This document shows, piece by piece, positions 5,577 to 20,863 of a DNA stretch of 20,863 bases (position 1 is the first letter of the stretch; every line of letters begins with the position of its first letter). Made by a program: the position numbers and the translations under genes. The notes below the pieces were generated by a model that saw nothing but the letters and a program-made list of their open reading frames with translations, made no database searches and was not told the DNA's origin. The stretch covers positions 1 to 20,863 of IMG/VR virus record IMGVR_UViG_3300028581_002525. One strand, written 5' to 3'. The DNA is from a virus.

Positions 5577-5584
5577 TATTTATC
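5577..5584 (-). promoter_or_regulatory. Late-promoter-like box before gp25
   Basis: GATAAATA on the minus strand, five bases (CATAT) before the GTG start of the gp25-like gene. It would drive the wedge operon. Assigned from similarity to the T4 late consensus TATAAATA and from repetition of the same spacing elsewhere in the window. Confidence 0.6.
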
Positions 5585-5595
5585 TGATTTTTATT

Positions 5596-5625
5596 CTTTT
5601 AAAAATGGTTTTACACCATTAAAAG
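5596..5625. other. Imperfect inverted repeat in divergent intergenic region
   Basis: CTTTTAAAAATGGT (5596-5609) can pair with ACCATTAAAAG (5615-5625) across a five-base loop, with a three-base bulge in the left arm. It lies between two divergent late-box promoters. It could be an operator, a hairpin in one of the leaders, or chance in AT-rich DNA. It is not a convincing terminator, since neither flanking gene ends here. Confidence 0.3.
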
Positions 5626-5626
5626 C

Positions 5627-5634
5627 CATAAATA
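5627..5634 (+). promoter_or_regulatory. Late-promoter-like box before the 202-residue gene
   Basis: CATAAATA, six bases (ATTTAA) before the ATG at 5641. This plus-strand copy shows that the box follows gene orientation, which argues against simple AT-rich composition. Confidence 0.6.
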
Positions 5635-5640
5635 ATTTAA

Positions 5641-6249
5641 ATGAACAAGAAGTTTACTAAGATATACGAGTCGGCAATGCAAAGATTTACAGGCCAAGGG
5701 TTTTTAGCGGGTGATGTTGTCTACTTTAAGAAAGATGCATTAAACGACAAGTGGTTTAAAGAGTTAGGTACAAACACACAAGAGAAGATAAAGAATATGA
5801 TTGATAGTGGCTTGAATCTTCGTGTATCAGCTATTAAAAACATTTATCCCAACGTACAGGGTGCAGGCAATACTGATTATACTGGCAGTGAAGTCAATAT
5901 TGATATAACATCAGAGATAGCTCCTGGCAGATACATGAGTTTTGTTACTGTTCCGGGTAGAATGCTTGAAACTAAGTGTAATTATCCTAATCTGCCAGAA
6001 GTTCCTGAAGTATTCAAAAAAGATGATCCAGCAAAACGTGTTCAAATTAAGCCAAAGAAGGTTAAAGATGAACAGCAAGAAGTTCCTTTCTACTCTCCAC
6101 AAATGACACGCCTATCTGATATAGGTAATAAGAAGTTATCTGCAGGAGACCGTGTATTAAACAATACGAACGTTAAAATACCTTCTGTTCCTGCAGTTGG
6201 TCAAGCGGACCCAGCGACTTATACAGCGAAATATCTGCCAAAAGGCTAA
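5641..6249 (+). CDS. Hypothetical phage protein, 202 residues
   Basis: I do not recognise this protein. It is one of only two plus-strand genes. Residues 20-45 (GFLAGDVVYFKKDALNDKWF) look like a small beta-barrel start of the 'f..GD.V.f' kind. Residues 80-120 are beta-rich (EVNIDITSEIAPGRYMSFV). Residues about 125-150 are a Lys-rich linker, and the C-terminal third is extended and rich in Pro, Ala and Asn, ending LPKG. There is no signal peptide, membrane segment or catalytic motif. A TAAATA box six bases upstream suggests late expression, so a virion or assembly role is plausible but only inferred. Its stop codon interlocks with the clamp-loader stop (four-base overlap), leaving no room for a terminator between the convergent genes. 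Confidence 0.75.
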   Translation: MNKKFTKIYESAMQRFTGQGFLAGDVVYFKKDALNDKWFKELGTNTQEKIKNMIDSGLNLRVSAIKNIYPNVQGAGNTDYTGSEVNIDITSEIAPGRYMSFVTVPGRMLETKCNYPNLPEVPEVFKKDDPAKRVQIKPKKVKDEQQEVPFYSPQMTRLSDIGNKKLSAGDRVLNNTNVKIPSVPAVGQADPATYTAKYLPKG

Positions 6250-7178
6250 CTCTTGGCTTCAGACAAGCTGATTAAACAGCTATAACAGTTAATCTCCTGG
6301 TCTATAACAAACGAGCTACGGTATATGTACTCAGATAACGTAAGAAGATAGTATCGCTTTAGATCAACATTTGTTTCAACATCGTCGATGTAGTTAAACA
6401 GGTTCCTCATTAATGTCACATAGTCATTATTAAACTGAGCTTCATTTTCAATTAATGCTTTACGAAGTGCTGTAATGTTTTTCTTTTTAATCTCATTAAA
6501 AATCAGTTGTAATACTTCGTTGTTCTTTGTATCGGCTAACTGTAATGTACCGGAACTTGAATATTTTTGTAGTTCGTTTAAGCATTTACGGAGATCAGGA
6601 TAGTTGGACTTAATAAAATCGAGTAGCTTTGGCTTTTCTTCCTCTTTAATAACTATTTTTTCAGCTTTCAATACTTGTACACAGCGCTTAACCACACCAT
6701 CCATAGGAGGTGTAAGATCAAAACTCTGACATCTACTCTGTAAAGCAGGAATGACCCGGTAGTTATAATTGGCAGTAAGAATAAACCGTGTAATTTTAGC
6801 AAACTCTTCTATTGTATTACGTAATGCACGTTGAGCATCAATAGAGAGACCGTCGGTCTCATCTAAAATAATAACTTTAATCTTTCCATCTAAGCTTTTT
6901 GTCTGTGCAAACCCTGTTACCTTGTTGCGAATTGTATCAATACCGTTTTCATCACTTGCATTAATATAAAGGTACTGACAGTCTAGTATGTCGTTAACTA
7001 AAATCTTCGCTAATGATGTCTTTCCAAGACCGGGGGTACCAGTAAAGAGTAGATTAGGTATCTCTTTCTTGTCTTTAAATGAATCGATTATCGTTTTATT
7101 TTTATCTGAAATAATAAAATCAGATAATGTCTTAGGTCTCCACTTTTCAACCCATAGATTTGAGAAATCGTAATTCAT
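6246..7178 (-). CDS. 44: Sliding-clamp loader ATPase subunit, gp44-like
   Basis: 310 residues, close to T4 gp44 (319). It is an AAA+ ATPase that, with a partner subunit (gp62 in T4), opens and loads the sliding clamp at primer ends during phage DNA replication. Visible motifs: VEKWRPKTLSDF near the N-terminus, as in RFC small subunits; Walker A GTPGLGKTS (47-55); Walker B VIILDETD (102-109); sensor 1 around LTAN (134-137); the clamp-loader SRC motif LQSRC (146-150); and a sensor 2-like PDLRKCLNELQ (194-204). All key ATPase residues are present. The ATG shares one base with the dUTPase stop (TAAATAATG), so the two genes are coupled. No gp62-like gene is adjacent, so the partner must lie elsewhere in the genome or be replaced. 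A replication gene inside a tail module is unusual. Confidence 0.93.
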   Translation of the reverse strand: MNYDFSNLWVEKWRPKTLSDFIISDKNKTIIDSFKDKKEIPNLLFTGTPGLGKTSLAKILVNDILDCQYLYINASDENGIDTIRNKVTGFAQTKSLDGKIKVIILDETDGLSIDAQRALRNTIEEFAKITRFILTANYNYRVIPALQSRCQSFDLTPPMDGVVKRCVQVLKAEKIVIKEEEKPKLLDFIKSNYPDLRKCLNELQKYSSSGTLQLADTKNNEVLQLIFNEIKKKNITALRKALIENEAQFNNDYVTLMRNLFNYIDDVETNVDLKRYYLLTLSEYIYRSSFVIDQEINCYSCLISLSEAKS

Positions 7179-7639
7179 TATTTACCAGATGACCCGAATC
7201 CCTTTTCACCGCGGATAGTTTCTTGAACTTTACCCCATTCAACAGGCATAGAAATATTAAAGTAAATAGCAAACTGCGCTATTCTATCACCAACACGTAC
7301 CTGATAGTCGGTATCAGAGAGGTTATATAGCTTAACACCAGCATCTCCTCTATATCCACTATCAATAATGCCTGGATGTGCCATAATACTATGCTTAAAC
7401 CCAAGACCACTTCTACTTTCAACTTTAATCCAATAACCTTCCGGTATTTCGGCAAATTTAAGACCTACATTAATAACTGTAAAGCCACGCGCTGGAATTA
7501 CCTTGTCTTCAATACTATAAACATCGTATCCGGTATCAGATTCATGGTTCTTACTAGGTAACTTAGCTAAATCGTGTGTTTTCTCGAACTTTAGAACAGG
7601 CAAAAACTGCGTATTAGGATCTCTTTCATTAATATACAT
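7178..7639 (-). CDS. dut: dUTP diphosphatase (trimeric dUTPase)
   Basis: It hydrolyses dUTP to dUMP and pyrophosphate, keeping uracil out of phage DNA and feeding dTMP synthesis. From ATG 7639 it has 153 residues, the usual size of homotrimeric dUTPases. All five family motifs are present in order: DTGYD (35-39), SRSGLG (75-80), GIIDSGYRGD with the catalytic-region Asp (90-99), GDRIAQ (117-122) and the C-terminal P-loop-like RGEKGFGSSG (143-152). A longer reading from TTG at 7672 adds 11 residues, but I prefer the ATG: it lies five bases after a TATAATA element, the added residues match no family motif, and those bases look like promoter DNA. It heads a two-gene unit with the clamp loader. 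Confidence 0.95.
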   Translation of the reverse strand: MYINERDPNTQFLPVLKFEKTHDLAKLPSKNHESDTGYDVYSIEDKVIPARGFTVINVGLKFAEIPEGYWIKVESRSGLGFKHSIMAHPGIIDSGYRGDAGVKLYNLSDTDYQVRVGDRIAQFAIYFNISMPVEWGKVQETIRGEKGFGSSGK

Positions 7640-7644
7640 ACCTC

Positions 7645-7672
7645 TATTATAATATACCTTTATAAAAATCAA
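7645..7672 (-). promoter_or_regulatory. Possible non-late (sigma70-like) promoter for dut and clamp loader
   Basis: On the minus strand TTGATT (7672-7667) is followed after 15 bases by TATAAT (7651-7646), with the dUTPase ATG five bases beyond TATAATA. The hexamers resemble host-type -35 and -10 elements, though the spacer is shorter than the usual 17. This differs from the TAAATA box at the structural genes and would suit earlier expression. Confidence 0.4.
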
Positions 7673-7677
7673 TAGTT

Positions 7678-7685
7678 ATTAAATA
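7678..7685 (+). promoter_or_regulatory. Late-promoter-like box before the putative terminase small subunit
   Basis: ATTAAATA, five bases (ATAGT) before the ATG at 7691. It is back to back with the TATAAT-type element of the dUTPase gene inside a 51-bp divergent gap. Confidence 0.55.
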
Positions 7686-7690
7686 ATAGT

Positions 7691-8173
7691 ATGAGCGATG
7701 AGTTAAATGAGATGGTAGGTGATTTATTAGGTCAACTTCAAGAAGCTAATAAGAAAGCTGTAGTAGCTCAAAAAGAATCCGATCCTTTAACTAAAGAAAA
7801 TATTGAAAAGTTTGTTATAGAGAACGCAGGTAAGCTTGTTAAAGAGAGTTTAGAGGTTGTTACCAATGTGAAAGACTATATTTCATCAGCTCCTGAGAAT
7901 AAAGATGTAAGTTCTTTAGCTGATTTAATAGCAGCGACCTCTACAGCTATTGAAACTCTCAATAAAATTATAGTCACAGACAAAAGAAATGAAACGGTTA
8001 TTAAAGCTAAAGATATGGATATTAAATCTAGAAAAGAATTAAAAGAAGTTGATACTACTACAAAGCTTTTAGCTACAAGAGAACAAGTGTTTAAGATGCT
8101 TATTGACAGTGCAAATACTAGTGCTAAGACAATTGAAGCTGAAATCGTTAAGTCAGAAAAGCTGGAAGATTAA
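7691..8173 (+). CDS. Putative terminase small subunit (gp16-like)
   Basis: 160 residues, acidic and helical throughout; T4 gp16 has 164. The central helical hairpin (residues about 47-108: GKLVKESLEVVTNVKDYIS, then SLADLIAATSTAIETLNKII, then a charged KAKDMD segment) resembles the gp16 pattern of a helix, a short Pro/Asn-containing turn, a second helix ending in 'l..l', and a lysine-rich tail. In T4-like phages gp16 forms rings that regulate DNA packaging by the large terminase gp17. No sequence motif is decisive, and a coiled-coil scaffold or chaperone is the main alternative. Late expression fits the TAAATA box upstream. The stop codon interlocks with that of the 603-residue gene (four-base overlap). 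The large terminase is not in the window. Confidence 0.5.
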   Translation: MSDELNEMVGDLLGQLQEANKKAVVAQKESDPLTKENIEKFVIENAGKLVKESLEVVTNVKDYISSAPENKDVSSLADLIAATSTAIETLNKIIVTDKRNETVIKAKDMDIKSRKELKEVDTTTKLLATREQVFKMLIDSANTSAKTIEAEIVKSEKLED

Positions 8174-9981
8174 AAATTATTATTGTTATTACAAGTAAAG
8201 AACTTGTCAAATAGATTTTTAAATATTTTCTTAAAGTCGGGCGTAAGATTCTTTAACAGTTTCTTAAAATCATCTTTTGAAGGTAATTTAGGTAACATTG
8301 CTTTGAGCTTGTTAAGTAATGTATCAGGATCAAACTCTATATCAAAAACAAATGACGGATCTATCTTACCAATAATAGGCAATTCAAAATTACAAATAAT
8401 GCCTTTTACACTTTGAGCAAGTTCAAATACATTATTAACACTATTAAGATCAAAGCTTGTAAAATTACCTAAATTTGTACGTGTTATAAGTGCCGATATC
8501 TCAGGAATTGATCCTAAATTAATAGAAGGTAATATTCCCCCTGTTGATCCATTTATTTTAATAGAGTCACCAAGTATAGAAAAAGGATTTTGTGTTAGCG
8601 CTCCAATGTTACCTATGGCATCTCTGAATGGGGTAACCAAACCGTTAACTGCCTCGCTAAAGGGCGATAATGCCCCGCCTAGTCCTAATGTATTCAGCGG
8701 GCCTAATGCTGCATCAATTCCAGGTATATTGTTTATATTAATTTTATCTAGAACGTTATTAAGAGTATTTAATGATTGATTAGGTAGAGACATTACCTCT
8801 TGTGCAAATTCTAATTTCTTTGTAGCGAATTCTGTAAGGGAAGCAGGGATAGGTATTTTATATGTTTTTTCTTGAAATAAAAATCTATTATTAATAGAAT
8901 TAGTAGTAATATTTGGAGCAAGCGGATCACCTGCGTTTAATCTCTCTACACTTATAGTGTTTGCAATATTACGTGTGCTCGTAGATTCTATAATCTTCTT
9001 TTGTAACAAATCTAGCTTTTGTCTAGTACCTTCAACATCAAGTTCAAACTCTATATTTGTTATAAATTGTTTATTATAAGTAGGAACAATGCGAGGACTA
9101 TAGCCTGTTTTATCATTTATGGTATTAAAATAAGAAATAAATTCGTAATACTGCTGACCGAATTGTGAAACTAATTGCTGTACTATTTGTTGAAGTTCAT
9201 TAAAAAATTCATTTACATAGTTAATATCGCCTACAAGATTACAGCCATGAGCTTGGAGAGGTGTAGCTGTCATATTATCTAAAGAATTTGTAGATTGCTT
9301 GCTTACACGTTGCAAGTTTATAAGGTTAGCTCTCATCATGGATGTATTTTTTGTACTTAAATCACGCATTATGTCTCTTGTGGTTTGACTTATCTTGCAA
9401 TTCAATGTTGGCGGTATTGTAACTGGTGCACCATATTTACATTGAACATCAGCTAGAAGGCTTGAAGAATCATCAATTTTAGAACTAATATTTGCTAAAA
9501 TACCTATACTATCACTCATATCACCTAGGTATGAATAATTTTTACTTCTTGTAGAGCTTGTAGCACTAAAGCCTTGTAAATACTCATTACTAAATGTTAG
9601 ATTGTTGTATGTATCGACGTCGCGATCTACAGAACCACTAAATCTCGTTTCCTTATCTTTTTTAATTTCAGCTTTTATAATATCTAGAGATGATTGGTAT
9701 TTTTTATACCAAAAATATATGAAATCATTATTAAATGTTTTAAGTTTTTTATTATCCAAGTCTTTAAAAAAACTAGCTACATTGGTAATAGGGTCGCCGC
9801 TCTTTAAAGCGTTTCTATAATCTATACTAGCATTTGTTTCATCGATAAAATCACCTAACTCATCCGCTAAAGCGCCAACTGCAGTTAAGTAGTTTGAATA
9901 CTCATTGAGAAATTTAGTAGAATTTGCTACATTAGCATCAACTAATTCAGGATAAAGGGTTCTTGTTAATGTTTTTATCAT
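8170..9981 (-). CDS. Hypothetical structural protein, 603 residues, between hub and wedge genes
   Basis: I do not recognise the family. The N-terminal half is mostly helical. Five cysteines are scattered (CKYG, LNCK, HGCN, CNFE, FTCN). Residues 440-510 are a low-complexity Gly/Asn/Ile/Pro stretch with repeated PFS, LG and GSIPE-like turns. The C-terminal 60 residues are very basic (LPSKDDFKKLLKNLTPDFKK) and end in an Asn run. No lysozyme, PAAR or spike motif is visible, although in T4-type order the spike/lysozyme would sit near the hub gene. The ATG overlaps the hub-gene stop (ATGA), so the two are probably coupled and used in similar amounts. A baseplate or tail role is inferred from context only. 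Confidence 0.8.
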   Translation of the reverse strand: MIKTLTRTLYPELVDANVANSTKFLNEYSNYLTAVGALADELGDFIDETNASIDYRNALKSGDPITNVASFFKDLDNKKLKTFNNDFIYFWYKKYQSSLDIIKAEIKKDKETRFSGSVDRDVDTYNNLTFSNEYLQGFSATSSTRSKNYSYLGDMSDSIGILANISSKIDDSSSLLADVQCKYGAPVTIPPTLNCKISQTTRDIMRDLSTKNTSMMRANLINLQRVSKQSTNSLDNMTATPLQAHGCNLVGDINYVNEFFNELQQIVQQLVSQFGQQYYEFISYFNTINDKTGYSPRIVPTYNKQFITNIEFELDVEGTRQKLDLLQKKIIESTSTRNIANTISVERLNAGDPLAPNITTNSINNRFLFQEKTYKIPIPASLTEFATKKLEFAQEVMSLPNQSLNTLNNVLDKININNIPGIDAALGPLNTLGLGGALSPFSEAVNGLVTPFRDAIGNIGALTQNPFSILGDSIKINGSTGGILPSINLGSIPEISALITRTNLGNFTSFDLNSVNNVFELAQSVKGIICNFELPIIGKIDPSFVFDIEFDPDTLLNKLKAMLPKLPSKDDFKKLLKNLTPDFKKIFKNLFDKFFTCNNNNNF

Positions 9982-11570
9982 ATGCTATTATTATTTAAAA
10001 AGAGATTAGTAAAACTGTATGTTTTTACACATCTAAGTTCAGTAAAATACTCATTACCCTTAAAGATATGGTTTACTTCTATTACAAAATATATACCAAG
10101 CATTTTACTGTCAAAATCACTGTATGCAATAGCTCCATCACGATCTATACCTATAAAATAACCTGATTGTCTGTGTGTTGATCCGGGTACTTTAAAGATA
10201 ACTGTATTATTAAAGAATATATTATTATATATAACTCTATTTCGGCCTAAGCTTAATCTTTGATCAGCTTCATCTTCAATTACAGAGAATATATTCTTAA
10301 TATTTCTTTGTTCTTGTCTATTTTTTCCAGGAAAAAAGTTTGAAAATGCACCTGATTCTGAAACCGAATTAAAAGGTTTTACATAATTATCAATATATGT
10401 ATCGGTAATATGATTGATATCGTTTTTTTCAGAGTCTATTGAAAACTGCTTGTCAATGTAATTGTAACTATGTACATTTGTTGAAGCTATTTCTTGTTGT
10501 GTGTGTATACCTGGCATTGGATCGTATATTAAGTTGTTTATAGTGCCATACTTATCAAGAAATAATGCTAGCTGAGGCGTAAAATTGGCAGGTTCGATAT
10601 AATAGTTCTTTGTATCATCTGAATATAGCCCTAATTTAAAAGTTTCTAAATAAAGTTCGCCGCCTCCTGTTTGTTGACTATTGCTAACAGGTACTACTGC
10701 GCTCTGAAAATAACTTTTTAAACTCTTTAATGAAAATCTATTGGTACTTCTTTCTAATTCTAAAAGCCCCATATCATAATTGTCTGTTTCACTAGAAACA
10801 TGGCGTGATATCAAATAATTTAAACAATCTATTCCTTTATATCTAGCAGGAGATGCAAAAAATATACTAGTGCTTCCTTCATCAAAATTTTCATTAAAAG
10901 TTACAGTTTCACCTTCACTATTGAAAAAGTTATTTAAAAATTCTTTAATAGCAGTTCCTGTATTAATACCTCTTTCCTCATCATCGAGATTAAGAATATT
11001 ATCCGTTTTATTTTTATCCGTAAAATTAGCTGTAGAGAAGTATGAATTTTTTTCAGTTAATAATTCATAATGCGTATCCCAGAAATATAATTTTTTAAAT
11101 TTCTGACCGGGTTGATCACCTTCAATTTCTTCAGTTCTATAGATACTAAAAAGAAAATATAGCCGAAATAATAAGTCAGAATTTGATCTATCAAATTTAG
11201 TAGAAAGTTCTGATTCATTTAATTTTGGTATAATTTCAATTTCTAAAAAGTCTCTTGAATCTCCTTTAAATATAAAACCTTTATTAGGAGTAAATCTTCC
11301 AGAAGTATTATTGCTTATTTCATCATTATTTTGCAAATCGGTTATTCGTTCAACAGCATCAAATGTATTATTTAAAATTAAATAACCTTGATGGAAAGGG
11401 TTAGTAAGAGAGTCTTGTATTACAAGAGTATTAATCGATCCGATCTTTAATTGCTGTGATCTGCCATCAGAAGAATTCAGTATAACGTTAAAATAATAGG
11501 GATTATTATTAATAACGTCACTAAAGCGATCCTGATTAGTTAATAAATCACTTTGTGTTATTTCTGCCAT
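9978..11570 (-). CDS. Baseplate hub protein, gp27-like
   Basis: 530 residues, larger than T4 gp27 (391). The N-terminal part has the tube-like beta pattern of hub proteins (YYFNVILNSSDGRSQQLKIG near residue 25, then LVIQDSLTNPFHQGYLIL). The C-terminal part carries the hub/gpD-type segment: VIFKVPGSTHRQSGYFIGI (near 458-476), a Ser/Asp linker, then LGIYFVIEVNHIFKGNEY, matching the usual 'G.y.V..v.H.f....Y...l...k' strand pair. Such proteins form the trimer that links the tail tube to the central spike. The order after gp48- and gp53-like genes supports this. The ATG is preceded at five bases by a TAAATA box that overlaps the stop codon of the upstream gene. Hub assignment is by motif and position, so moderately sure. 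Confidence 0.7.
   Translation of the reverse strand: MAEITQSDLLTNQDRFSDVINNNPYYFNVILNSSDGRSQQLKIGSINTLVIQDSLTNPFHQGYLILNNTFDAVERITDLQNNDEISNNTSGRFTPNKGFIFKGDSRDFLEIEIIPKLNESELSTKFDRSNSDLLFRLYFLFSIYRTEEIEGDQPGQKFKKLYFWDTHYELLTEKNSYFSTANFTDKNKTDNILNLDDEERGINTGTAIKEFLNNFFNSEGETVTFNENFDEGSTSIFFASPARYKGIDCLNYLISRHVSSETDNYDMGLLELERSTNRFSLKSLKSYFQSAVVPVSNSQQTGGGELYLETFKLGLYSDDTKNYYIEPANFTPQLALFLDKYGTINNLIYDPMPGIHTQQEIASTNVHSYNYIDKQFSIDSEKNDINHITDTYIDNYVKPFNSVSESGAFSNFFPGKNRQEQRNIKNIFSVIEDEADQRLSLGRNRVIYNNIFFNNTVIFKVPGSTHRQSGYFIGIDRDGAIAYSDFDSKMLGIYFVIEVNHIFKGNEYFTELRCVKTYSFTNLFLNNNSI
9992..9999 (-). promoter_or_regulatory. TAAATA box before the 603-residue gene (atypical spacing)
   Basis: TTTAAATA lies ten bases before the ATG at 9981, inside the last codons of the hub gene. 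The spacing is longer than at other genes, and the start also overlaps the upstream stop, so this copy may be chance. Confidence 0.3.
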
Positions 11571-11574
11571 AGGT

Positions 11575-11943
11575 TTATTTAGTTGCTAAAGTATTCTTAA
11601 TCTCGTATATAATTCCTGGAACATACTGAGTCTTTATTATTTTCAATGAACTTCCAGCTTTAGCAAAATCAACGGGGTTATAGATCTGATTAGTAAGACA
11701 AACCAACCACCAAAGTTCAATTGTTCTGTAAGCATTAAAACTCACAGTAGTCCAGGGCATTCTACTAGAAATTAACATATTATATATTTTTGTTTCATCA
11801 ATATTGTTAGGTAAAAATAGAGATTGAAGTAAATTATAATAGTATTGATTGTCTTTATTTTTATATACTTTAAAAATATTCTCATATCTAATACTGTTCA
11901 AGCTAGGTAAATCGGTAATTGAGTTTTGAAATTGTCCTTCCAT
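11575..11943 (-). CDS. Baseplate wedge protein, gp53-like (small)
   Basis: 122 residues from ATG 11943. An 18-base upstream extension to TTG 11961 exists, but the ATG lies one base after the upstream stop (TAATATG), so I chose it. A GGAGGA ten bases upstream is part of the previous coding sequence and may help initiation. Two short regions suggest gp53: an N-terminal 'ri.NiF..' type segment (NSIRYENIFKVYKN), and a C-terminal part with YRTIELWWLVCLTNQIYNP followed by AGSSLKIIKTQYVPGIIYEI. The second matches the 'y..lw.i...N.i.dP.....G..l.ip' pattern of gp53/LysM-like baseplate proteins. T4 gp53 is longer (196), so this would be a reduced version. It would belong to the inner wedge near gp48 and gp27. 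Confidence 0.6.
   Translation of the reverse strand: MEGQFQNSITDLPSLNSIRYENIFKVYKNKDNQYYYNLLQSLFLPNNIDETKIYNMLISSRMPWTTVSFNAYRTIELWWLVCLTNQIYNPVDFAKAGSSLKIIKTQYVPGIIYEIKNTLATK
11576..11583 (-). promoter_or_regulatory. Late-promoter-like box before the hub gene
   Basis: ACTAAATA, five bases (AACCT) before the ATG at 11570. It contains part of the stop codon region of the gp53-like gene, so the promoter is embedded in coding sequence. Confidence 0.55.
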
Positions 11944-11944
11944 A

Positions 11945-13297
11945 TTAGACGATTCCTCCAAAGGGTGTTGAAGATGTAGTTACAGCGGGATTACTGTTTA
12001 TAAGACTGTACATAAAATTCTTTGTTTCCGCTAATAAGCTTTTTACTGTTATACGTATTAAATATGCATCGGGTACGATAGTTTTAATCTTTCTTGAAGT
12101 TTGATTATTATAAAATTCACTTTTATAAGTGGTAGTAGCTCTAGTAGTAGCGGCATTTAAAAAATCACCAACTAGATTTCTTGGAGGTCCATTAATATTA
12201 AAAGTCTGGTCTGTGCTAAAGTTATTTAATGTATTTAAATTATTTTCTTCGCCTAGTTGAAAAGGGATATTTGTTACTCTTAGGTTATCTGTAAAACTCA
12301 AATTAAATTCAAGCTCTCTTCTAGAGCCCTGAAAATCTACAGCAATGTTTGACACATAGCAAAATGGTAGAAATTTAACACCTGGTATATCTAATTGATA
12401 AAGTACAGGCGGGTCGACGATAGATACAGAGCGTCTTGATGGTTTATTGTTATACAGAAGTAAGAATAGTAATTCCCAATTTCTTACAACATCATCGAAT
12501 GTAGCGCTTCCAGTGTTAATGAGAGGAAATGTAAAAGATATTTCTTCTCCTTCAGTTGAATAGTTGTAAAGTTTAGCCTTCTCAACAAAGCTGATATCTG
12601 AAGGTTTAGTTAATGTAGACGCAATATCGGTAAAATCAGTTAATCCATCTACTGCCATTTTAGCTATTCCGCTAAAATTTGTATTACTATCCCCTGAATA
12701 GACATTAGCTTGAGCACTAGAGTAATTATCAAAATAAGGTAAAATAAATTTCCACCCTGTATCTTCAGTTATATATAAATTCTCGTAAGGCTTCATTAAG
12801 GGATTTTTAAAGACAGGATTATTATCTTTTAATTGAGGTACAGCTGTTTCAGCAAATTGTGTAGCGCTTTGCTTAGCATTACCTACCGCGTTACTTACGT
12901 TACTTAAATTATTAGTAACATTATTACCTAAAAATTGTTTCGCTAATGGGTTTTGGGATAATTGATTTAAAGTATCTTGTGCTACAGTAAACGCATTTCC
13001 AAATGCATATTTTAACTGAGATATAAGACTATTTACTTTTTGTCTCTTTTCTGTTAAAATAACTCGCGGTACCTCTTGACGACTTTCTCTTAGTTTTGAA
13101 TATGTCCAATAAAAGTCATTTACTACATCAACCACACTCCCATTAATTATAGTTCCATCAGAATTTGTAGAGCTCCCGTATGCTGTGTTGTTTGGCGAAA
13201 CTAAGAAAGGAGGTGTTACATTAATATCTCTACCAAAAACTTCGTTATTTACTTCAGAGAACTCTCTTGATCTATTAATTGAAAAAACGTGTTCCAT
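11945..13297 (-). CDS. Baseplate tail-tube cap protein, gp48-like
   Basis: 450 residues (T4 gp48 has 364). The C-terminal half has the tube-fold pattern: EGEEISFTFPLIN (249-261), a helix RNWELLFLLLYNN (272-284), then DPPVLYQLDIPGVKFLPFCY (295-314) and SNIAVDFQG (316-324), and finally DAYLIRITVKSLLAETKNF near residue 408, which is the classic 'PdAy.v.i.f.sL..et.n.' end of gp48/gp54-type proteins. The N-terminal 160 residues are helical and rich in Asn, Gln and Ser. In T4, gp48 and gp54 sit between the hub and the first tube ring and start tube assembly around the tape measure. The position, just after the tape measure and before gp53 and the hub, fits. The ATG has a TAAATA box at five bases. 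Confidence 0.7.
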   Translation of the reverse strand: MEHVFSINRSREFSEVNNEVFGRDINVTPPFLVSPNNTAYGSSTNSDGTIINGSVVDVVNDFYWTYSKLRESRQEVPRVILTEKRQKVNSLISQLKYAFGNAFTVAQDTLNQLSQNPLAKQFLGNNVTNNLSNVSNAVGNAKQSATQFAETAVPQLKDNNPVFKNPLMKPYENLYITEDTGWKFILPYFDNYSSAQANVYSGDSNTNFSGIAKMAVDGLTDFTDIASTLTKPSDISFVEKAKLYNYSTEGEEISFTFPLINTGSATFDDVVRNWELLFLLLYNNKPSRRSVSIVDPPVLYQLDIPGVKFLPFCYVSNIAVDFQGSRRELEFNLSFTDNLRVTNIPFQLGEENNLNTLNNFSTDQTFNINGPPRNLVGDFLNAATTRATTTYKSEFYNNQTSRKIKTIVPDAYLIRITVKSLLAETKNFMYSLINSNPAVTTSSTPFGGIV

Positions 13298-13302
13298 AAT
13301 TA

Positions 13303-13310
13303 TATTTATG
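13303..13310 (-). promoter_or_regulatory. Late-promoter-like box before the gp48-like gene
   Basis: CATAAATA, five bases (TAATT) before the ATG at 13297. The TAA within it is the stop codon of the tape-measure gene, so stop and promoter share bases. Confidence 0.6.
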
Positions 13311-15384
13311 CATATACAGATCTACTAAGATCTTCCATTTGGAACTCGTAATTAGATGCTGCTTTATTTGAAAAATTATTGAAATTCGAATTACTATTAA
13401 CTATTACATTATTTGATTTTAACGTATTGCTAGCTATAGTAGCTAGTGCAGTATTATTTCCAGTTTGTGTTTTTAGTAATGCTTCTAAAAGAATGGCATG
13501 TTTATTAAGACCGCTAACAATATCATCTACCATTTTTTTAAAATCTACTTTATCCATATTCTGATTCTGATCTGTTTTTAATTGTTGAATGGCACTAGAA
13601 TCACTACCAACTGGCTTGAATTTTTCGTATTTTTCGTAGTCTGTGTCTATTTGTTTTTCGCCTTCAGTATCTAATGCTTTAATAGTGTCTTCATTGAGTT
13701 GTTTACTTTTTTCTAATTTTTTAATTCTTTCAATTCTATCTTTATCGTCACCATACATATCTTTTATATTTTCTCTCGTCCATCCGAGAATAATACTGCC
13801 AGCACTGGTTATAACTCCTGATACAATGCCGGTAAGCAATGTTGCAGTTAGCGGTTGACTAAAAAAAGGTGTTCCTGGGATAACTGAAGAAGCTAGACCT
13901 ACACTTCCTCCAAGAACAGAACCAGCAGCGCCTGCTTTTAGAGAATCTGTTAAAACTTTTTTATTAGGATTTTTTTCATTTTCAATTTCTTTATTGAGTC
14001 TTTTTTCTTCTAGGATTGAGTTTTCTCTTGCTTGATAATAAGAATCTTCATCATTTATATCATTACCCGCTTTTCTATCTAAAGAGGATACTGGGTAATA
14101 TTTATTGCGCGATGTTATTGCTTTAAAAGCTGCTTTAAGCTTATCAAAGCCCTCTGCTTTATCTATTTCTTGAAGATTATCTATTGTTTCTACAACAAAT
14201 CTAAGTCCATTAGAAATTCCGGGTGCGTAATCATCTAAAATTTTAAATCCTTTAGAAGCAGCAGCTTCATTACCACTGAAAATTAGTGATATGGCATTTG
14301 CTATATCTACTACAGAAGAAACTACAGAATTAATTTTTTCTGAAATTTCGGTAAAAACAGCATTAAACACATCACCGATGTTTGCTTCTAATGGTCCTTT
14401 TGTAACAAAATTTTTATCAGCAGCAAATACAAATGCTTTTTCAGTTAACATGGATAAAAATTTTGTTACTGGTGTTAGTACAGGAAAATAAACCGAAATT
14501 TGATTGAGTATGCCAATTATATCTGTTAAGTTAATGTTACTTCCTTTTGTTGCAACTTCATAAAGCTGTACAAAAAGGTTACTTACTTTACCAAAAAAAT
14601 CTATCACTGGGTTTAGAAAATTTGTGATGCCGTTAAAAATACCATCAACTACTTGTTCAAAAGAAAAGGTTTTACCAAATAAACTGAATTGTTTGCTCTT
14701 ATCTGACTTAGCATCATAATTACCAAGTAGTCTTTGCTTTGAACTACCAAAGAAAGTAGCGATGAATTCAGCGCCAGGTATAGCGAAAGCAAGCCTCTTA
14801 ATACCTTTTTCAATTTGCCCTTGAGCTATGAGAGAGAATCCATCATAAGCATCTATCAATCTTCCTACAAAAGGTATTCCACGAATAAACTCTTTAAATT
14901 CAAGATTCTTCTTGTTAAAAACATTTAGAATATTTTTTAAACTTGTAAATACTGCACCTTTTTGAAAATTTTCGAACATTTTTTTCATAGCTGGTATTTT
15001 TTGTACACCAAATGCTAGTCCTGCAATACCACCTAAGAGAAGTAATATAGGGCTTAAAAATTTAAATATTGAGCCGGTTTCTTTCTTTTGAGAAGTCTTT
15101 ACTTCTTTTAATAATGCACTATATTTGTCTGATTGATCTAATGCCTTTAAGGATTTTTGTGCTGGTTTTGAAAATGTTACCTCTTGAGGTTCTTTTGAAC
15201 GCTTATCTCTTCTTGCTTGTGCATCAGCTGTAATAGCATATCTATTATCTTCAATCGATATACGTTTATCTAGTATTTTTTCAACATTTTGTAGTATTTT
15301 AGTCTGTTGAACTGATTGAAGCTTAAGATCTTCAAATCCTTTACCAAATACAGCGATAAGCTGATCATTAGATAACTCGTCCAT
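13306..15384 (-). CDS. Probable tail tape measure protein (gp29 role)
   Basis: 692 residues, mostly helical, against 590 for T4 gp29. It sets tail length and fills the tube lumen. Seen in the sequence: a charged N-terminal helical region (1-100); a strongly hydrophobic segment FKFLSPILLLLGGIAGLAFG at about 107-126; amphipathic repeats of Phe/Ile/Val through the middle; a charged linker around 440-480; and a second hydrophobic, Gly/Ala-rich stretch around 485-535 (including GAAGSVLGGSVGLASS). Hydrophobic, membrane-prone segments in a long helical protein directly after small assembly genes are typical of tape measures. By the usual rule of roughly 1.5 angstrom per residue it would give a tail near 100 nm; this is inference. 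The ATG has a TAAATA box at six bases. Confidence 0.75.
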   Translation of the reverse strand: MDELSNDQLIAVFGKGFEDLKLQSVQQTKILQNVEKILDKRISIEDNRYAITADAQARRDKRSKEPQEVTFSKPAQKSLKALDQSDKYSALLKEVKTSQKKETGSIFKFLSPILLLLGGIAGLAFGVQKIPAMKKMFENFQKGAVFTSLKNILNVFNKKNLEFKEFIRGIPFVGRLIDAYDGFSLIAQGQIEKGIKRLAFAIPGAEFIATFFGSSKQRLLGNYDAKSDKSKQFSLFGKTFSFEQVVDGIFNGITNFLNPVIDFFGKVSNLFVQLYEVATKGSNINLTDIIGILNQISVYFPVLTPVTKFLSMLTEKAFVFAADKNFVTKGPLEANIGDVFNAVFTEISEKINSVVSSVVDIANAISLIFSGNEAAASKGFKILDDYAPGISNGLRFVVETIDNLQEIDKAEGFDKLKAAFKAITSRNKYYPVSSLDRKAGNDINDEDSYYQARENSILEEKRLNKEIENEKNPNKKVLTDSLKAGAAGSVLGGSVGLASSVIPGTPFFSQPLTATLLTGIVSGVITSAGSIILGWTRENIKDMYGDDKDRIERIKKLEKSKQLNEDTIKALDTEGEKQIDTDYEKYEKFKPVGSDSSAIQQLKTDQNQNMDKVDFKKMVDDIVSGLNKHAILLEALLKTQTGNNTALATIASNTLKSNNVIVNSNSNFNNFSNKAASNYEFQMEDLSRSVYA

Positions 15385-15390
15385 TACTAA

Positions 15391-15398
15391 TATTTAAG
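15391..15398 (-). promoter_or_regulatory. Late-promoter-like box before the tape measure gene
   Basis: CTTAAATA, six bases (TTAGTA) before the ATG at 15384, in the 26-base gap after the upstream assembly gene. Confidence 0.6.
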
Positions 15399-15410
15399 AG
15401 ATTAGATTAG

Positions 15411-16163: not shown

Positions 16164-17028
16164 GTTTATAATTAGGTCCCTTGTTAGGCATGTTCAACTC
16201 TTTGTTTGACTTATTTCTCTCTTCAATCTCTTTCTTGAAGAGGTTCATATATACATTTATCTCAGCAGGTGTGGAATTGTGTAGTAAATTGCTGCCAAGA
16301 TTAGCTTTTGTGACAAAATAATACTCAAATTCGTAAAGAGAGAGGAGATCGCGCTTGAAGATTATTTTTAAAAATTCTAAAACTGTATTATCCGCAAGCG
16401 AGATATTAAGTTCAATTTTTTCATTAGGTAACTTAAAATTAAGAAGATAATAACTTTCAAAGAATTTTTCTATTTTATTAAAATGCTCTTTACAATCTTT
16501 GAATATATTAGCAGGCAGTAATTCAGTAATATTTGAGTCGTTAATATCTACTTCTTCGTTGTTAAAGTTAATTCGTTTAATTGTAGTTAAAAAACTGTTC
16601 TCATTTTTCTCAGTTAATAAAGAATAAGGAAGTCCATATTCAACATGTATTTTATTATACGTTTTTTCGGTGTGTAGCAATTCTTCAGGTATAGTAATAT
16701 CTTTTAAAGTTGTAATTATATTGGTTAAATCAATAGAGAGCGGGTTATCTTTTTTAGTAATTTTATCAGGTATTGTAAGTTCCAGTACAGGTGTTATACA
16801 AATAGTACGAATTGTAAGAAGAAGATACAGTTTATCGAAGAACGTAAGTTTAAGATTCTTTTCAACCAATAAATTATCTAATATTTTATCAAATAAAAGA
16901 GATATTTGTTTATTATTATTGTTTAAAAGCGTTTTAACAAGGGATTTAAACGTTGAATACTTTAGCTCATACAAATCAGTGATCTTTTCTAAAGACGGGA
17001 TATAGCTTTGATATATAAAATCATCCAC
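16156..17028 (-). CDS. Baseplate hub/tail assembly protein, gp26/gp51-type (copy 1)
   Basis: 290 residues, helical and Lys/Leu/Asn-rich. Residues 24-75 read KYSTFKSLVKTLLNN, then FDKILDNLL, then LTFFDKLYLLLTIRTICITP; this mirrors the 'f..L.K.l......il......lt.fD...ll..lR...i' arrangement in the next gene. Later segments also match in order: a 'LT.I...L..I.IP' block, a strand pair, and NDSNITELLPANIF against NNSNVAELIPIVER in the 250-residue protein. The family is therefore inferred as gp26/gp51-like, with an extra C-terminal helical part. The start is GTG at 17028, chosen because a TAAATA box lies six bases upstream. A tape-measure chaperone or hub-assembly role is likely but not proven. Confidence 0.5.
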   Translation of the reverse strand: MDDFIYQSYIPSLEKITDLYELKYSTFKSLVKTLLNNNNKQISLLFDKILDNLLVEKNLKLTFFDKLYLLLTIRTICITPVLELTIPDKITKKDNPLSIDLTNIITTLKDITIPEELLHTEKTYNKIHVEYGLPYSLLTEKNENSFLTTIKRINFNNEEVDINDSNITELLPANIFKDCKEHFNKIEKFFESYYLLNFKLPNEKIELNISLADNTVLEFLKIIFKRDLLSLYEFEYYFVTKANLGSNLLHNSTPAEINVYMNLFKKEIEERNKSNKELNMPNKGPNYKHE

Positions 17029-17034
17029 AAAGCT

Positions 17035-17042
17035 TATTTAAC
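17035..17042 (-). promoter_or_regulatory. Late-promoter-like box before the 290-residue assembly gene
   Basis: GTTAAATA, six bases (AGCTTT) before the GTG at 17028. It supports this GTG over internal starts. Confidence 0.6.
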
Positions 17043-17049
17043 ATGAAAA

Positions 17050-17958
17050 TTATAAAAATCCAAGAGGGTTAATGCTGCCAATACCATTTTGAAAGCTTGT
17101 AATTCTAGGAATTTCACCATTTGAAATTCTATTAACAATATCTGCAACAGGTAGATATAGATTATTTTCAACAGTATAATTTGAGTACGTCCAGCGTGTA
17201 GAATATGTTGTTAATTTATCATCAGAATAATCTAAAGACTGTTCAGATACTTGATAAGGCACACAATTGTAAAAGTTAAATACTTTTCTAGGTATCATTG
17301 AGATGCTGTGTAAGGTTCTTGTATATTCAAGTAAAGTCATGTTTACTTTCATATTTTTAAGGTCTTTGGAGCTACCTGTGTCACCAGGGCGTGCTGTCAT
17401 ACCATAATGCGATCCTAAAATAACCCACGGTCTAATAACAAAATCAATAAATGATGTATTTGTTTCTCTAAAATCAATAACTAGTGCGGGCGGTTCGGTT
17501 GTTCTCCCTCCACCTAAAATACCGGGTAAAAATCCTCTATTATTAGGTACAGAGGCGGACATTACTTCATACTGTTCAGTAGGTACTGTTATTGCATGTG
17601 CAAATAAACAACCAATAACTTTTTGTAAAGGAAAACTATTTAAAATATTAACAGCAGAATCAATATTAAATCCTTTCTTAGAACCATCTGTTCTTTCTAA
17701 TCCTTGAATAATATTGGTTCTAAGAGCGCGGGGATATGCATCTATAACAACTATCCATTGAGATGAATTAGGAATCGCTGTAAACCACGATTCCATTTGA
17801 AAGAGAAAATAATCCCTTACACTTACAATCGGAACACCGGGGATATTAAAACCGAAAAGATTAGTTACTTGAGGAGCGAATAATGGATTATTACCTGTAG
17901 CAAGCCCTGTAAAGTTTTGTCCTAAACCATTAAGTGCACTCGTAAACGGGTTATTCAC
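17050..17958 (-). CDS. Tail tube initiator / tube-baseplate junction protein, gp54-like
   Basis: 302 residues, near T4 gp54 (320). The tube fold is visible in the second half: VIDFRETNTSFIDFVIRPWV (160-179), a 'f.et....d..i.pW' segment, and IPRKVFNFYNCVPYQV (222-237) followed by SLDYSDDKLTTYSTRWTYSN (241-260), matching the 'r.v..f.n.fP..is...ldysdd......v.faY..y' end of tail-tube proteins. The N-terminal 50 residues are Gly/Asn/Phe-rich. In T4, gp54 caps the baseplate and nucleates tube polymerisation. Here it follows the tube gene directly. The start is GTG at 17958 with a TAAATA box five bases upstream and no Shine-Dalgarno sequence. gp48 would be the alternative, but the 450-residue protein fits that better. 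Confidence 0.65.
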   Translation of the reverse strand: MNNPFTSALNGLGQNFTGLATGNNPLFAPQVTNLFGFNIPGVPIVSVRDYFLFQMESWFTAIPNSSQWIVVIDAYPRALRTNIIQGLERTDGSKKGFNIDSAVNILNSFPLQKVIGCLFAHAITVPTEQYEVMSASVPNNRGFLPGILGGGRTTEPPALVIDFRETNTSFIDFVIRPWVILGSHYGMTARPGDTGSSKDLKNMKVNMTLLEYTRTLHSISMIPRKVFNFYNCVPYQVSEQSLDYSDDKLTTYSTRWTYSNYTVENNLYLPVADIVNRISNGEIPRITSFQNGIGSINPLGFL

Positions 17959-17963
17959 TTAAT

Positions 17964-17971
17964 TATTTAGT
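17964..17971 (-). promoter_or_regulatory. Late-promoter-like box before the gp54-like gene
   Basis: ACTAAATA, five bases (ATTAA) before the GTG at 17958, in the 26-base gap after the tube gene. Confidence 0.6.
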
Positions 17972-17984
17972 TAACTGAGTAGAT

Positions 17985-18533
17985 TTAAGAGATTTTTCTC
18001 CAGTAGTGATACGAAACTGTGGCGGTAAATTCAATTGTCTCGCCTGTTCCTGTGGCAATATTATACTGCAGGGGTCCAACACTTCTAACCGATGCACCAA
18101 CTAGTTGATACTGTGATTGTTTGTTCATTTGATTGTCGAGCTGAACGAGATCGATAATGGCAGTCTGCTTAGGAGCAAAGTAATTACCAGTAGAATTTGA
18201 ATCATCAAAAATATCTGTTGACCATTGTTCGAATTTCTGACGAAGTTGTGAATTAGCATCGGCATAGAACGTTAATGCATAAGCTTCACTGCCTGGATAG
18301 GTTGCATTGCCGGGTAAATTAAAGTTTAATCCCATGTAAGGTACAGCAATATTTGTAATAGATCTTTCAGGTAGTGAGGCTGTTTTTACATATACTAAAT
18401 CATTTTCATCAAATGTTACTGTGCTTGCTCCGCCGGTATTAATTGAGAGCACTCTAAAGTTAAAATCACGAGCGAACTCGCGAGTAGAAGCTACTCTGTA
18501 AAAGTCGGTAATAAGTTGATTTACATCTGCCAT
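17985..18533 (-). CDS. 19: Tail tube protein, gp19-like
   Basis: 182 residues (T4 gp19 has 163). It polymerises as hexameric rings to make the inner tube through which DNA passes. The family start is clear: MADVNQLITDFYRVASTREF followed by DFNFRVLSI. Next come LVYVKTASLPERSI (46-59), the 'l.y.+.a.LP.r.i' loop strand, a PGNATYPGSEAYALTFYAD segment (75-93), and a C-terminal strand pair VGPLQYN and TGETIEFTATVSYHYW. The start is ATG 18533. A TAAATA box lies five bases upstream; an AAGGA about 12 bases upstream is rather far for a ribosome binding site. It is the second gene of the sheath-tube pair, as in T4. Confidence 0.92.
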   Translation of the reverse strand: MADVNQLITDFYRVASTREFARDFNFRVLSINTGGASTVTFDENDLVYVKTASLPERSITNIAVPYMGLNFNLPGNATYPGSEAYALTFYADANSQLRQKFEQWSTDIFDDSNSTGNYFAPKQTAIIDLVQLDNQMNKQSQYQLVGASVRSVGPLQYNIATGTGETIEFTATVSYHYWRKIS

Positions 18534-18538
18534 AAAAT

Positions 18539-18546
18539 TATTTATT
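18539..18546 (-). promoter_or_regulatory. Late-promoter-like box before the tail tube gene
   Basis: AATAAATA, five bases (ATTTT) before the ATG at 18533. A separate promoter for the tube, distinct from the sheath, would fit its high copy number. This box overlaps the end of an AAGGA that could act as a weak ribosome site on read-through transcripts. Confidence 0.6.
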
Positions 18547-18557
18547 CCTTATTACTC

Positions 18558-20852
18558 TTACGAGATAATCTCCTGGAAGCTTGTTCCTGTTCTTGTTGCA
18601 TAAAAATTACAAAGAATATATTCAGCAGTGCGAACTGGCTTGATATATATGTCAATAATCAATGTATTATCATCAATAACCGTGGGTGTATTGTTTCTTT
18701 CATCACAAATAATTAGATAATCATATATACCTTGTGTATTCTTAGCATTATCAAAAATAGGTGTGATGCTATTCAATACTTGAGTACGTGTAAAAAGTGT
18801 ATTTGGCTCAAATACAAAGTATTTAACAGTATCTCTTGTTGAAGTTTCAAGACTCAAGAAGAGTCTGCGTACATTGATCCTATCAAATGCACTAGGCTTC
18901 TTCTGCAGTGTCTTTTGACCGAAAATTACAAATCCCTCAGCAGGGAAGAATGTAACAGGATTTAAATTAGCTTTATAAAGCTGATCACGTTGCTTCTGTT
19001 TAGGATAAATTGCAATATCATTAGCTCCAGCAAGAATACCGCGGGTAAAACCTGCAGGTGCATACCATGGCTGGTAATTACTATCAGTATTAGCCATTGC
19101 TGCAGCTGCAAAGCCTGAGAACGGTACCCATACTTCTTGAGATGAGGCAACATCTGATACCTTAACACAATTAGCAAATGTGCAAGCATAACTCGTATTT
19201 AGCGAAGCAAATTGATTCCTTAACGGCCAATAAATATTGCCAGCAAATGTATTTGTAGGAACATCTAATGTCTTTACATTTGAACCCTGTACAAATATGT
19301 TTGTTAAAGGATCTGCGATAAAGATAAGATCTTTACGGTTATCAATTAATGTTAAGAATGCATTAGCTACACCGTTGTACTGTGAAATAGCTGTTGGTAC
19401 TGATAGACCATTTTGTGCTGTGAGAGAGCTTGTCATTGAATCGTACGGTATGCTATCATCAAAATAGCCAAGTGTACGTGGATTAAACGAATTAACGTAA
19501 ACTGTACCCAGACCGGCTTCTAAAGCAATATTAATCGGAAATAAATCCGAATTGTTAACCTTATCAAGAGCTACTTGAAGTTTTGTAGGTAAGTTACCAA
19601 TCTCTTTTGTAGATAAGTCTTGGTTGCTATAATCACCTAATGCAATTAGAGCGTCTGTACCACCAAGAAACTCATAAAATCCTTGAACTTGTGCAACCGG
19701 TGCACCAACTCTTGTTTCATACTCATCAGCTGTTTCGTTAGCTAAAGGATTGAGAGCCGATCTGCTAAGAAAACGAGCTTTCTTACGAGGTGTACCGTCA
19801 ACACCAAGCCATGTTGTTTGATTTCTATTTGAAATAAACGGGTTAACTAATACGGTAGCATTTAACGATGATTCGTCAACTTGCTCTAAGAAGAAGCTAG
19901 TAGCAGGCCCACCGTTTTCAGTGTTAATTTGTCTGTTAAAATCAAGCGATCCTACGAAGCTCTCACGTAAAACGTAATCAAGCGCGATTGTATCAGGAGA
20001 GAATACCGATTGACGTAATCCGAATACACCAAGTATGGCTGTATCATCAAACTGTCTGGATGAAATCTCAAATGAAGGTATATTTTCAACTACTTCTGAG
20101 ACACTACCACTTCCACCACCAACTTCAGCAGATAAACTAAAGTTAAGTCTTGTTGAAGGAATATTGACATAACTATCACCGTAAATTGCAGCTGCACTTG
20201 TATTAACAGATAATACGGAACCTATACCATTAAAAGGAGTGGCAGGATTAAGATTTAAATTATCAATTAATCCGATATATGTTCCTTCAAATCTATTATT
20301 AATTGTAGATTGGGCTTTATTTAAAATGACTAATCCAGCATTAGCAAGAGAAGCTACAGTACTAAATGTAGTAGCTCCACCTGTATTAGAGGCCCAGTTA
20401 AATCCATCACCGCGTAAAATTGAAAGGTATTCAGCTTGTGTTAATTTAAGATGTGTAGGTTCACCGAAGAAATAAGCACCGGAAACTGAAAGATTTAAGT
20501 TTGTTGACGAAGCACCATTAACATAAGATGCAACAGGGTAAACTAATGCACTAAAATCATTGCTTGTATCGACACCAGCATTAGGACCATAGGGTAATCT
20601 GTAGACTAATACGCTAGCAGGGGACTGCAATACAGCTCTTGTGGTGTGATAAAAATATCTTTCTGCAGAATTGGTCGGTGCACCAAAGACTTGTTCGAAT
20701 TCTGCCAAAGATGTAATACTAATTGGTTCTGAGCTAGGTCCTTTAGAAGCAAATCCAGAAATAAATACTGTGGTTGGTGCTACACCAGCGGTTGCTTGTG
20801 TGAAATCTTTTTCAGTAATCTCTACCCCGGGACTTTGAATTGTGCGTGCCAT
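18558..20852 (-). CDS. 18: Contractile tail sheath protein, gp18-like
   Basis: 764 residues, longer than T4 gp18 (659). It forms the outer helical sheath that contracts to drive the tube into the cell. The N-terminus has the family start ARTIQSPGVEITEKDF, then VFISGFASKGPSSEPI and SLAEFEQVFGAP. The conserved C-terminal domain is intact: a GILAGANDIAIYPKQKQRDQ segment, NLNPVTFFPAEGFVIFGQKT, the DRINVRRLFLSLE motif, FVFEPN, YLIICDERNNTP, and a final strand IKPVRTAEYILCNFYATRTG. The middle 200-450 region is variable and Ser/Asn-rich, as expected for surface-exposed insertions that account for the extra length. The start at ATG 20852 is fixed by the family N-terminus. Upstream sequence is cut at the window edge, but AAATA is visible six bases before the ATG. 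Confidence 0.97.
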   Translation of the reverse strand: MARTIQSPGVEITEKDFTQATAGVAPTTVFISGFASKGPSSEPISITSLAEFEQVFGAPTNSAERYFYHTTRAVLQSPASVLVYRLPYGPNAGVDTSNDFSALVYPVASYVNGASSTNLNLSVSGAYFFGEPTHLKLTQAEYLSILRGDGFNWASNTGGATTFSTVASLANAGLVILNKAQSTINNRFEGTYIGLIDNLNLNPATPFNGIGSVLSVNTSAAAIYGDSYVNIPSTRLNFSLSAEVGGGSGSVSEVVENIPSFEISSRQFDDTAILGVFGLRQSVFSPDTIALDYVLRESFVGSLDFNRQINTENGGPATSFFLEQVDESSLNATVLVNPFISNRNQTTWLGVDGTPRKKARFLSRSALNPLANETADEYETRVGAPVAQVQGFYEFLGGTDALIALGDYSNQDLSTKEIGNLPTKLQVALDKVNNSDLFPINIALEAGLGTVYVNSFNPRTLGYFDDSIPYDSMTSSLTAQNGLSVPTAISQYNGVANAFLTLIDNRKDLIFIADPLTNIFVQGSNVKTLDVPTNTFAGNIYWPLRNQFASLNTSYACTFANCVKVSDVASSQEVWVPFSGFAAAAMANTDSNYQPWYAPAGFTRGILAGANDIAIYPKQKQRDQLYKANLNPVTFFPAEGFVIFGQKTLQKKPSAFDRINVRRLFLSLETSTRDTVKYFVFEPNTLFTRTQVLNSITPIFDNAKNTQGIYDYLIICDERNNTPTVIDDNTLIIDIYIKPVRTAEYILCNFYATRTGTSFQEIIS

Positions 20853-20858
20853 ATAAAG

Positions 20859-20863
20859 TATTT
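20859..20863 (-). promoter_or_regulatory. Partial late-promoter-like box before the sheath gene
   Basis: AAATA on the minus strand, six bases (CTTTAT) before the sheath ATG; the rest of the box lies beyond the window. Spacing agrees with the complete copies. Confidence 0.4.

Follow-up and report, generated by a model that had tools for sequence, protein, structure and literature searches.

Late transcription in bacteriophage T4 is a textbook case, and T4 messages carry leaders. The T4 late box spans positions -13 to -6 (PMC1524935), and T4 late promoters have no -35 partner (PMC2988020). A second relevant arrangement is described in Deinococcus-Thermus and Actinobacteria, where the -10 hexamer of leaderless genes lies just a few bases upstream of the start codon and takes the place of the leader and the Shine-Dalgarno (SD) sequence (PMC12340547, PMC3160421). 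Here we analyze a 20,863-base fragment of a T4-like myovirus (IMG/VR record IMGVR_UViG_3300028581_002525, positions 1 to 20,863; label G000; this whole stretch is called the window below), in which copies of the hexamer TAAATA stand 5 or 6 nt before start codons. An initial annotation of the window had proposed either that these boxes are T4-type late promoters that yield leaderless messages, or that they serve as signals for translation initiation. The positions of the predicted promoters in the window and its relatives make it very probable that both the early and the late promoter-proximal genes of this group are transcribed without leaders.

The window has no close DNA match among 50,697 phage records, and we compared it with 80 loci of relatives, which were retrieved with the tail tube protein. 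Genes in the relatives were called blind to the box, which gave 635 distinct gene starts; each start is the most upstream possible one, except for those fixed by homology. Over the whole window, TAAATA is not over-represented (47 matches, 58 expected), and what sets it apart is solely where it lies. It precedes the start by 5 to 6 nt in 9 of the 20 called genes, while shuffled upstream regions yield 0.08 such genes on average and never more than 1 in any of 200 runs. The initial annotation had staked its proposal on such an excess over shuffled sequence, and the excess is indeed strong. Similarly, we found 41 such copies in contig G001 (1.0 expected from shuffles) and 40 in contig G002 (1.07 expected). 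Across the relatives, 306 of the 635 starts have TAAATA at this distance (194 at 5 nt and 112 at 6 nt), and the next most common spacings are 9 (24 starts) and 10 (21 starts). When hexamers at all positions were ranked for 817 genes with no motif supplied, TAAATA at spacing 5 came first (117 versus 3.8 elsewhere). The more inclusive TAARTA is found at spacer 5 in 134 and at spacer 6 in 61 of 837 pooled starts; any other spacing accounts for at most 15 starts in the core clade. The box is of the TATAAATA type, in which the core TAAATA is fixed, the two preceding bases are mostly A, and TAAGTA occurs as a variant. Thus, the fixed core with varying bases before it, as initially described, is borne out, the preceding bases being loosely kept.

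The T4 system predicts where such messages would begin. Since the T4 box occupies -13 to -6, a 5-nt spacer would make the first base of the start codon the +1 position, and the observed spacer mode is 5, followed by 6, in agreement with this register. Profiles of the late-box genes have no TTGA-like -35 element, only an A/T bias, and the late set consists of virion and lysis genes, including those for the sheath, tube, sheath stabiliser, neck adaptor, prohead protease and endolysin. The base at -1 is T in 76% of genes with spacer 5, 56% of those with spacer 6 and 62% of the sigma70 set described below; a pyrimidine-purine step is the usual step at which transcription starts. Together, the 5-nt mode, the virion and lysis functions, and the gp55 of the relatives strongly support the proposal of leaderless late transcription from T4-type promoters. 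We suggest that TAAATA, or its variant TAAGTA, would be the late promoter core read by host RNA polymerase with phage gp55, and that the promoter in this clade has been shifted against the gene, such that +1 would be the A of ATG or the first G of GTG at spacer 5 and at most one base before it at spacer 6. Late messages would then begin at the start codon, and so would have no SD sequence. In G006, a 218 kb contig of a deeper relative (gp55 44% identical), the distance of late boxes from starts ranges from 5 to 14 nt, and its lower limit of 5 is expected if +1 falls at or before, but never behind, the start codon; G006 is an apparent intermediate, with predicted leaders of 0 to 9 nt.

Many genes that follow a gap and lack the late box have a different signature, TTGAYN-N16-TATAAT, with the -10 hexamer ending 6 nt before the start. 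In the ordinary sigma70 register, the -10 hexamer occupies -12 to -7, so that TATAAT at spacing 6 would again put +1 on the start codon. The same unprompted ranking of 817 genes returned TATAAT at spacing 6 (35 versus 2.3 elsewhere) and TTGATT at spacing 28 (22 versus 0.85 elsewhere), which leaves N16 between the -35 and -10 elements. Moreover, in 65 genes picked solely because a -10-like hexamer stands 6 nt before the start, a -35 element that had not been selected for emerges at -34 to -29, with the TTGA at -34 to -31 conserved to 98% (T), 83% (T), 85% (G) and 69% (A). The -35 and -10 pair with a spacer of about 17 nt that characterizes sigma70-type promoters is thus found here as TTGA at -34 and TATAAT at -12, mostly with N16. 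The sigma70 set includes the genes for dUTPase, a DnaB-like helicase, UvsX, SSB, primase, GTP cyclohydrolase, QueD, a glycosyltransferase and the clamp candidate discussed below. Early and middle genes would therefore use host-type sigma70 promoters in the same register as the late class, with 6 nt between the -10 and the start. One region of G002 (L171:2181-8246) holds a run of small genes, each with a strong TTGAC-N16-TATAAT 6 nt before its ATG, and is probably an immediate-early region. The initial annotation recognized the late boxes, but missed the early class, as well as the comparison with other T4-like phages given below.

The two signatures are concentrated where promoters would be expected. 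Of the 391 genes that are separated from the preceding gene by 20 nt or more, or that diverge from their neighbour, 183 have one or the other; of the 354 genes that begin no more than 5 nt behind the preceding gene, 19 have one and 335 have neither. These tightly packed operon genes would be reached by readthrough, and would be translated partly with an SD sequence. Indeed, packed genes have a modest SD excess, with about 25 core matches per 100 genes at spacing 4 to 12, while late and early genes have none at spacing 4 to 9. In the 195 late genes, the SD core is found in 0 per 100 at spacing 0 to 9, the spacer being too short to hold one. Likewise, the near-absence of SD sequences that had been noted for box genes is confirmed, as 2–4% of them have a match. 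Start codon use also differs: TTG starts 1 of the 259 predicted leaderless genes versus 76 of 578 other genes. GTG starts are more frequent at spacer 5 (35 of 123) than at spacer 6 (3 of 57; Fisher P = 3e-4, uncorrected for orthology), and perhaps GTG needs the very 5′ end of the message.

A late sigma factor is encoded in this clade. A gp55 homologue is found in 13 of 20 contigs (PHROG late sigma factor, 1.4e-26; PDB 7d7c gp55, 1.4e-7); gp55 is not within the window itself, and the evidence for it is that from the relatives. Two of the gp55 genes lie at G001:93732-94340 and G002:69758-70354. A second protein, which was unrecognised by PHROGs, gave a model with a pLDDT of 90 that matched PCNA sliding clamps at ∼1e-13, and this clamp-fold protein is likely gp45. 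Its orthologues in the core clade have an early promoter. Thus, of the late-factor homologues that the initial annotation had suggested looking for, gp55 and a candidate for gp45 were recovered; gp33 is taken up below. A homologue of bS21 is encoded by 10 of the 13 contigs searched (G001:80554-80682, G002:84906-85037 and eight others). bS21 is the ribosomal protein at the anti-SD site (PMC9723584), and a phage-encoded copy raises a possible link to ribosome adaptation or leaderless translation.

Several observations weigh against leaderless expression as a general rule, or against its dependence on a T4-like late apparatus. The genomes that were pooled for the counts are related to one another, and the counts are not independent. 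Late boxes are found 7 to 16 nt before starts in a minority of cases, and genes with spacer 6 could begin one base upstream, that is, with a 1-nt leader. Of the 391 gap or divergent genes, 208 have neither signature; part of these are probably false or mis-started open reading frames, and others may have variant boxes or leaders. The nucleotide gene nrdB of G001 has a late box, and is an exception to the functional split between the two classes. In this gene (G001:141615-142679), the late box at spacing 5 overlaps a TATAAT, and in G002 the aligned nrdB start (29500-30564) is preceded, at a distance of 8 nt, by a TATAAT-type promoter. The gp55 of the clade lacks the hydrophobic motif found at the C terminus of T4 gp55 (SLDFLYE), a motif that the P-SSM2 protein lacks as well, and the clamp tethering or clamp dependence of the clade gp55 may differ from that in T4. 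Finally, gp33 was sought by sequence in the clade and was not found.

The longer spacings raise the possibility that the box is a late promoter, but with +1 several bases further upstream or with messages that are processed, such that short leaders remain. In addition to the boxes at 7 to 16 nt, the range of 5 to 14 nt in G006 and the 10-nt spacer of a 603-residue gene in the window are consistent with this idea. Nevertheless, spacers 5 and 6 together account for 195 starts and dominate the core clade, the lower edge of 5 in both the core clade and G006 is the T4 register with +1 on the start codon, and the independent sigma70 register yields an identical +1. Short leaders as the rule are thus improbable. 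We consider it more improbable still that the box is an element of translation initiation, an A/T-rich context in which the host ribosome would start without an SD sequence, as in the SD-free Bacteroidetes. The constant distance to start codons and the scarcity of SD sequences would fit such an element, as would the fact that these phages encode bS21, a protein of the anti-SD site (PMC9723584). However, packed genes need initiation equally and nearly all have neither box, early genes use another hexamer at another spacing together with a -35 element, and TAAATA in other T4-like phages lies mostly 20 to 30 nt off, too distant for contact at the start site. It is the early sigma70 signal in the same register that decides against a ribosome signal: the spacings of the two signals differ by one base, exactly as the two promoter registers do, and they are therefore not one ribosomal signal. 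The second of the two initial proposals is thus disfavoured.

Composition might also place TAAATA near starts by chance, since the genome is 64–67% A+T and the TAA stop of a preceding gene can contribute; some boxes, such as that of the hub-like gene, do include a preceding stop codon. This explanation is refuted by the shuffles (0.08 versus 9 in the window, ∼1 versus 40–41 in G001 and G002) and by the orthologues, in which the boxes are conserved, and is given almost no weight. Of the 195 late boxes, 127 are located between divergent genes or in gaps no shorter than 20 nt. We return, then, to leaderless transcription, and think it likely that leaderless expression of most promoter-proximal genes, early and late, is a lineage-wide trait, in which two unrelated sigma systems, host sigma70 and viral gp55, would have converged on a +1 at the start codon, presumably since ribosomes of the host are efficient in starting on leaderless RNA, with G006-like relatives as intermediates. 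What the sequences show directly is where the boxes lie, that they are conserved, that there are two promoter grammars which divide the genes by function, and that relatives encode gp55 and a clamp-fold protein; the transcript 5′ ends, the dependence on gp55 and the translation of leaderless messages by the host are inferred from these.

In the window, each of the nine complete boxes, and also the truncated AAATA upstream of the sheath gene, was found where the initial annotation had placed it, with the spacing given there; the list in that annotation lacked a tenth complete box, that of the 603-residue gene. The genes recognised are those for the sheath, tube, hub-like proteins, gp25- and gp6-like wedge proteins, clamp loader and dUTPase, while the remaining T4-style names are labels from the initial annotation and from gene order. 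On the minus strand, the box of the tail sheath gene (18558..20852; PHROG tail sheath, 6.5e-75) is cut by the end of the window (20859..20863), 6 nt from the ATG at 20852, and a complete TAAATA at spacing 6 is present in 29 of 29 orthologues. The tail tube gene (17985..18533; PHROG tail tube, 3.2e-21) has its box at 18539..18544, 5 nt from the ATG at 18533, and 39 of 39 orthologues have one at 5 or 6 nt, in one case TAAGTA. The gp54-like box (17964..17969) is 5 nt from a GTG at 17958; in all 50 of 50 orthologues the spacing is 5 and the start is GTG. A 290-residue baseplate-hub-like gene has its box at 17035..17040, 6 nt from a GTG at 17028 (kept in 4 of 4 orthologues), and the tape-measure-like gene at 15391..15396, 6 nt from the ATG at 15384 (kept in 5 of 5). 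The gp48-like box (13303..13308) lies 5 nt from the ATG at 13297, and is found in 20 of 23 orthologues, in 14 of these as TAAGTA. The hub-like box (11576..11581), 5 nt from the ATG at 11570, shares bases with the stop codon of the preceding gene and is present in 3 of 7 orthologues. For the 603-residue gene, the box (9992..9997) is 10 nt from the ATG at 9981, a long spacer that is kept in the orthologues shown, and a leader of ∼5 nt is predicted rather than leaderless expression. The gp25-like box (5577..5582) stands 5 nt from a GTG at 5571, with a spacing-5 box in 18 of 20 orthologues.

Two boxes are on the plus strand: that of a 202-residue gene (5629..5634, 6 nt from the ATG at 5641; a box at 5 or 6 nt in 15 of 27 orthologues) and that of a 160-residue gene (7680..7685, 5 nt from the ATG at 7691; a spacing-5 box in 11 of 22). 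The two replication genes of the window, both on the minus strand, lack a box at 5 to 6 nt. The dUTPase gene (7178..7639; PHROG dUTPase, 2.2e-41) belongs to the early class, with a TATAAT at 7646..7651, 6 nt from the ATG at 7639, as its predicted leaderless early promoter, and a candidate -35 TTGATT at 7667..7672, 15 nt from the -10 compared to the 16 nt typical of the clade. All four dUTPase orthologues have TA...T at spacing 6, and those of G001 and G002 are classed as early. The clamp loader (gp44-like) gene (6246..7178; PHROG clamp loader, 3e-79) overlaps the end of the dUTPase gene, and a box at 5 to 6 nt is likewise found in 0 of its 20 orthologues. The 51-nt gap 7640-7690 holds a divergent pair, the early sigma70 promoter of dUTPase on the minus strand and the late box of the 160-residue gene on the plus strand. 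The gp6, gp53-like and 250-residue genes, each close behind another gene, have no box at 5 to 6 nt, and the gene directly behind gp6 (1..3225, minus strand), which runs off the window, has the SD sequence AGGAG in place of a box, with an SD sequence in 4 of 4 orthologues.

An Rfam scan of the window returned no match, and its inverted repeats are short and unremarkable. With regard to the host, WhiB was searched for as a clue and not found, scans of bacterial genomes returned no relatives, whether the query was the tube protein or a bS21 alignment, and searches with the glycosyltransferase and NrdB led to distantly related phages only. Bacteroidetes were considered as hosts because of bS21 and the poverty in SD sequences.

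T4 late promoters and bacterial leaderless genes (e.g. in Deinococcus, PMC12340547) are already known separately. We found no report of the leaderless arrangement in phages or T4-like phages in the open-access literature (subscription papers and preprints being outside this scope), and it appears that no T4-like lineage has been described in which a leaderless register extends genome-wide over the early and late classes and over two sigma systems. If this arrangement is correct, a leader and an SD sequence would be dispensable even for major virion proteins, and the position of phage promoters would be tied to the host's mode of translation start. The signature could be used to predict hosts that translate leaderless messages, and would correct start-codon calls in such phages. 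Moreover, the box distances in T4 (mostly 20 to 30 nt), G006 (5 to 14 nt) and the clade (5 to 6 nt) would provide a natural series for the evolution of leaderless expression.

To compare phages, we used the same pipeline to count TAAATA at spacing 5 to 6 and at spacing 13 to 30. The respective counts are 41 and 15 for G001, 40 and 15 for G002 and 9 and 0 for the window, but 0 and 13 for the T4 late region, 0 and 4 for Syn9, 0 and 11 for P-SSM2, 0 and 7 for AG-345-L05, 1 and 9 for Melnitz-2, 3 and 5 for HTVC008M and 1 and 6 for Flavobacterium phage immuto. Loci with clamp loaders 36–40% identical have essentially no boxes at 5 to 6 nt, and many more SD sequences. The boxes of the clade thus resemble T4 late promoters in their TAAATA core, loose preceding bases, lack of a -35 element and A/T-rich DNA behind the box. 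The resemblance to the T4 late system extends to the placement of boxes before virion genes on both strands, the gp55 of the relatives and the clamp-fold gp45 candidate. What differs is the distance, since the box lies mostly 20 to 30 nt before the start in T4, Syn9, P-SSM2, AG-345-L05 and Melnitz-2 but 5 to 6 nt in the clade, and what follows the box, which is an SD sequence in T4 and Melnitz but not in the clade.

Marine T4-like phages (cyanophages, the Pelagibacter phage HTVC008M and Melnitz) have the same TAAATA core, but leaders are the rule among them, with an SD match in 67% of called genes in HTVC008M and 73% in Melnitz-2, compared to the 2–4% of box genes in the clade. The late region of HTVC008M (NC_020484; 55 called genes) has three TAAATA copies 5 nt before starts, and a few leaderless late genes may exist there, outside the clade. 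The bS21-encoding freshwater myophages (PMC9723584) resemble the clade in their phage-encoded bS21, and the word 'leaderless' does not occur in the text that describes them. The leaderless genes of Deinococcus-Thermus and Actinobacteria are cellular genes with sigma70-type promoters, whereas in the clade a viral late sigma factor would act in the same register too, and the early class has a -35 element.

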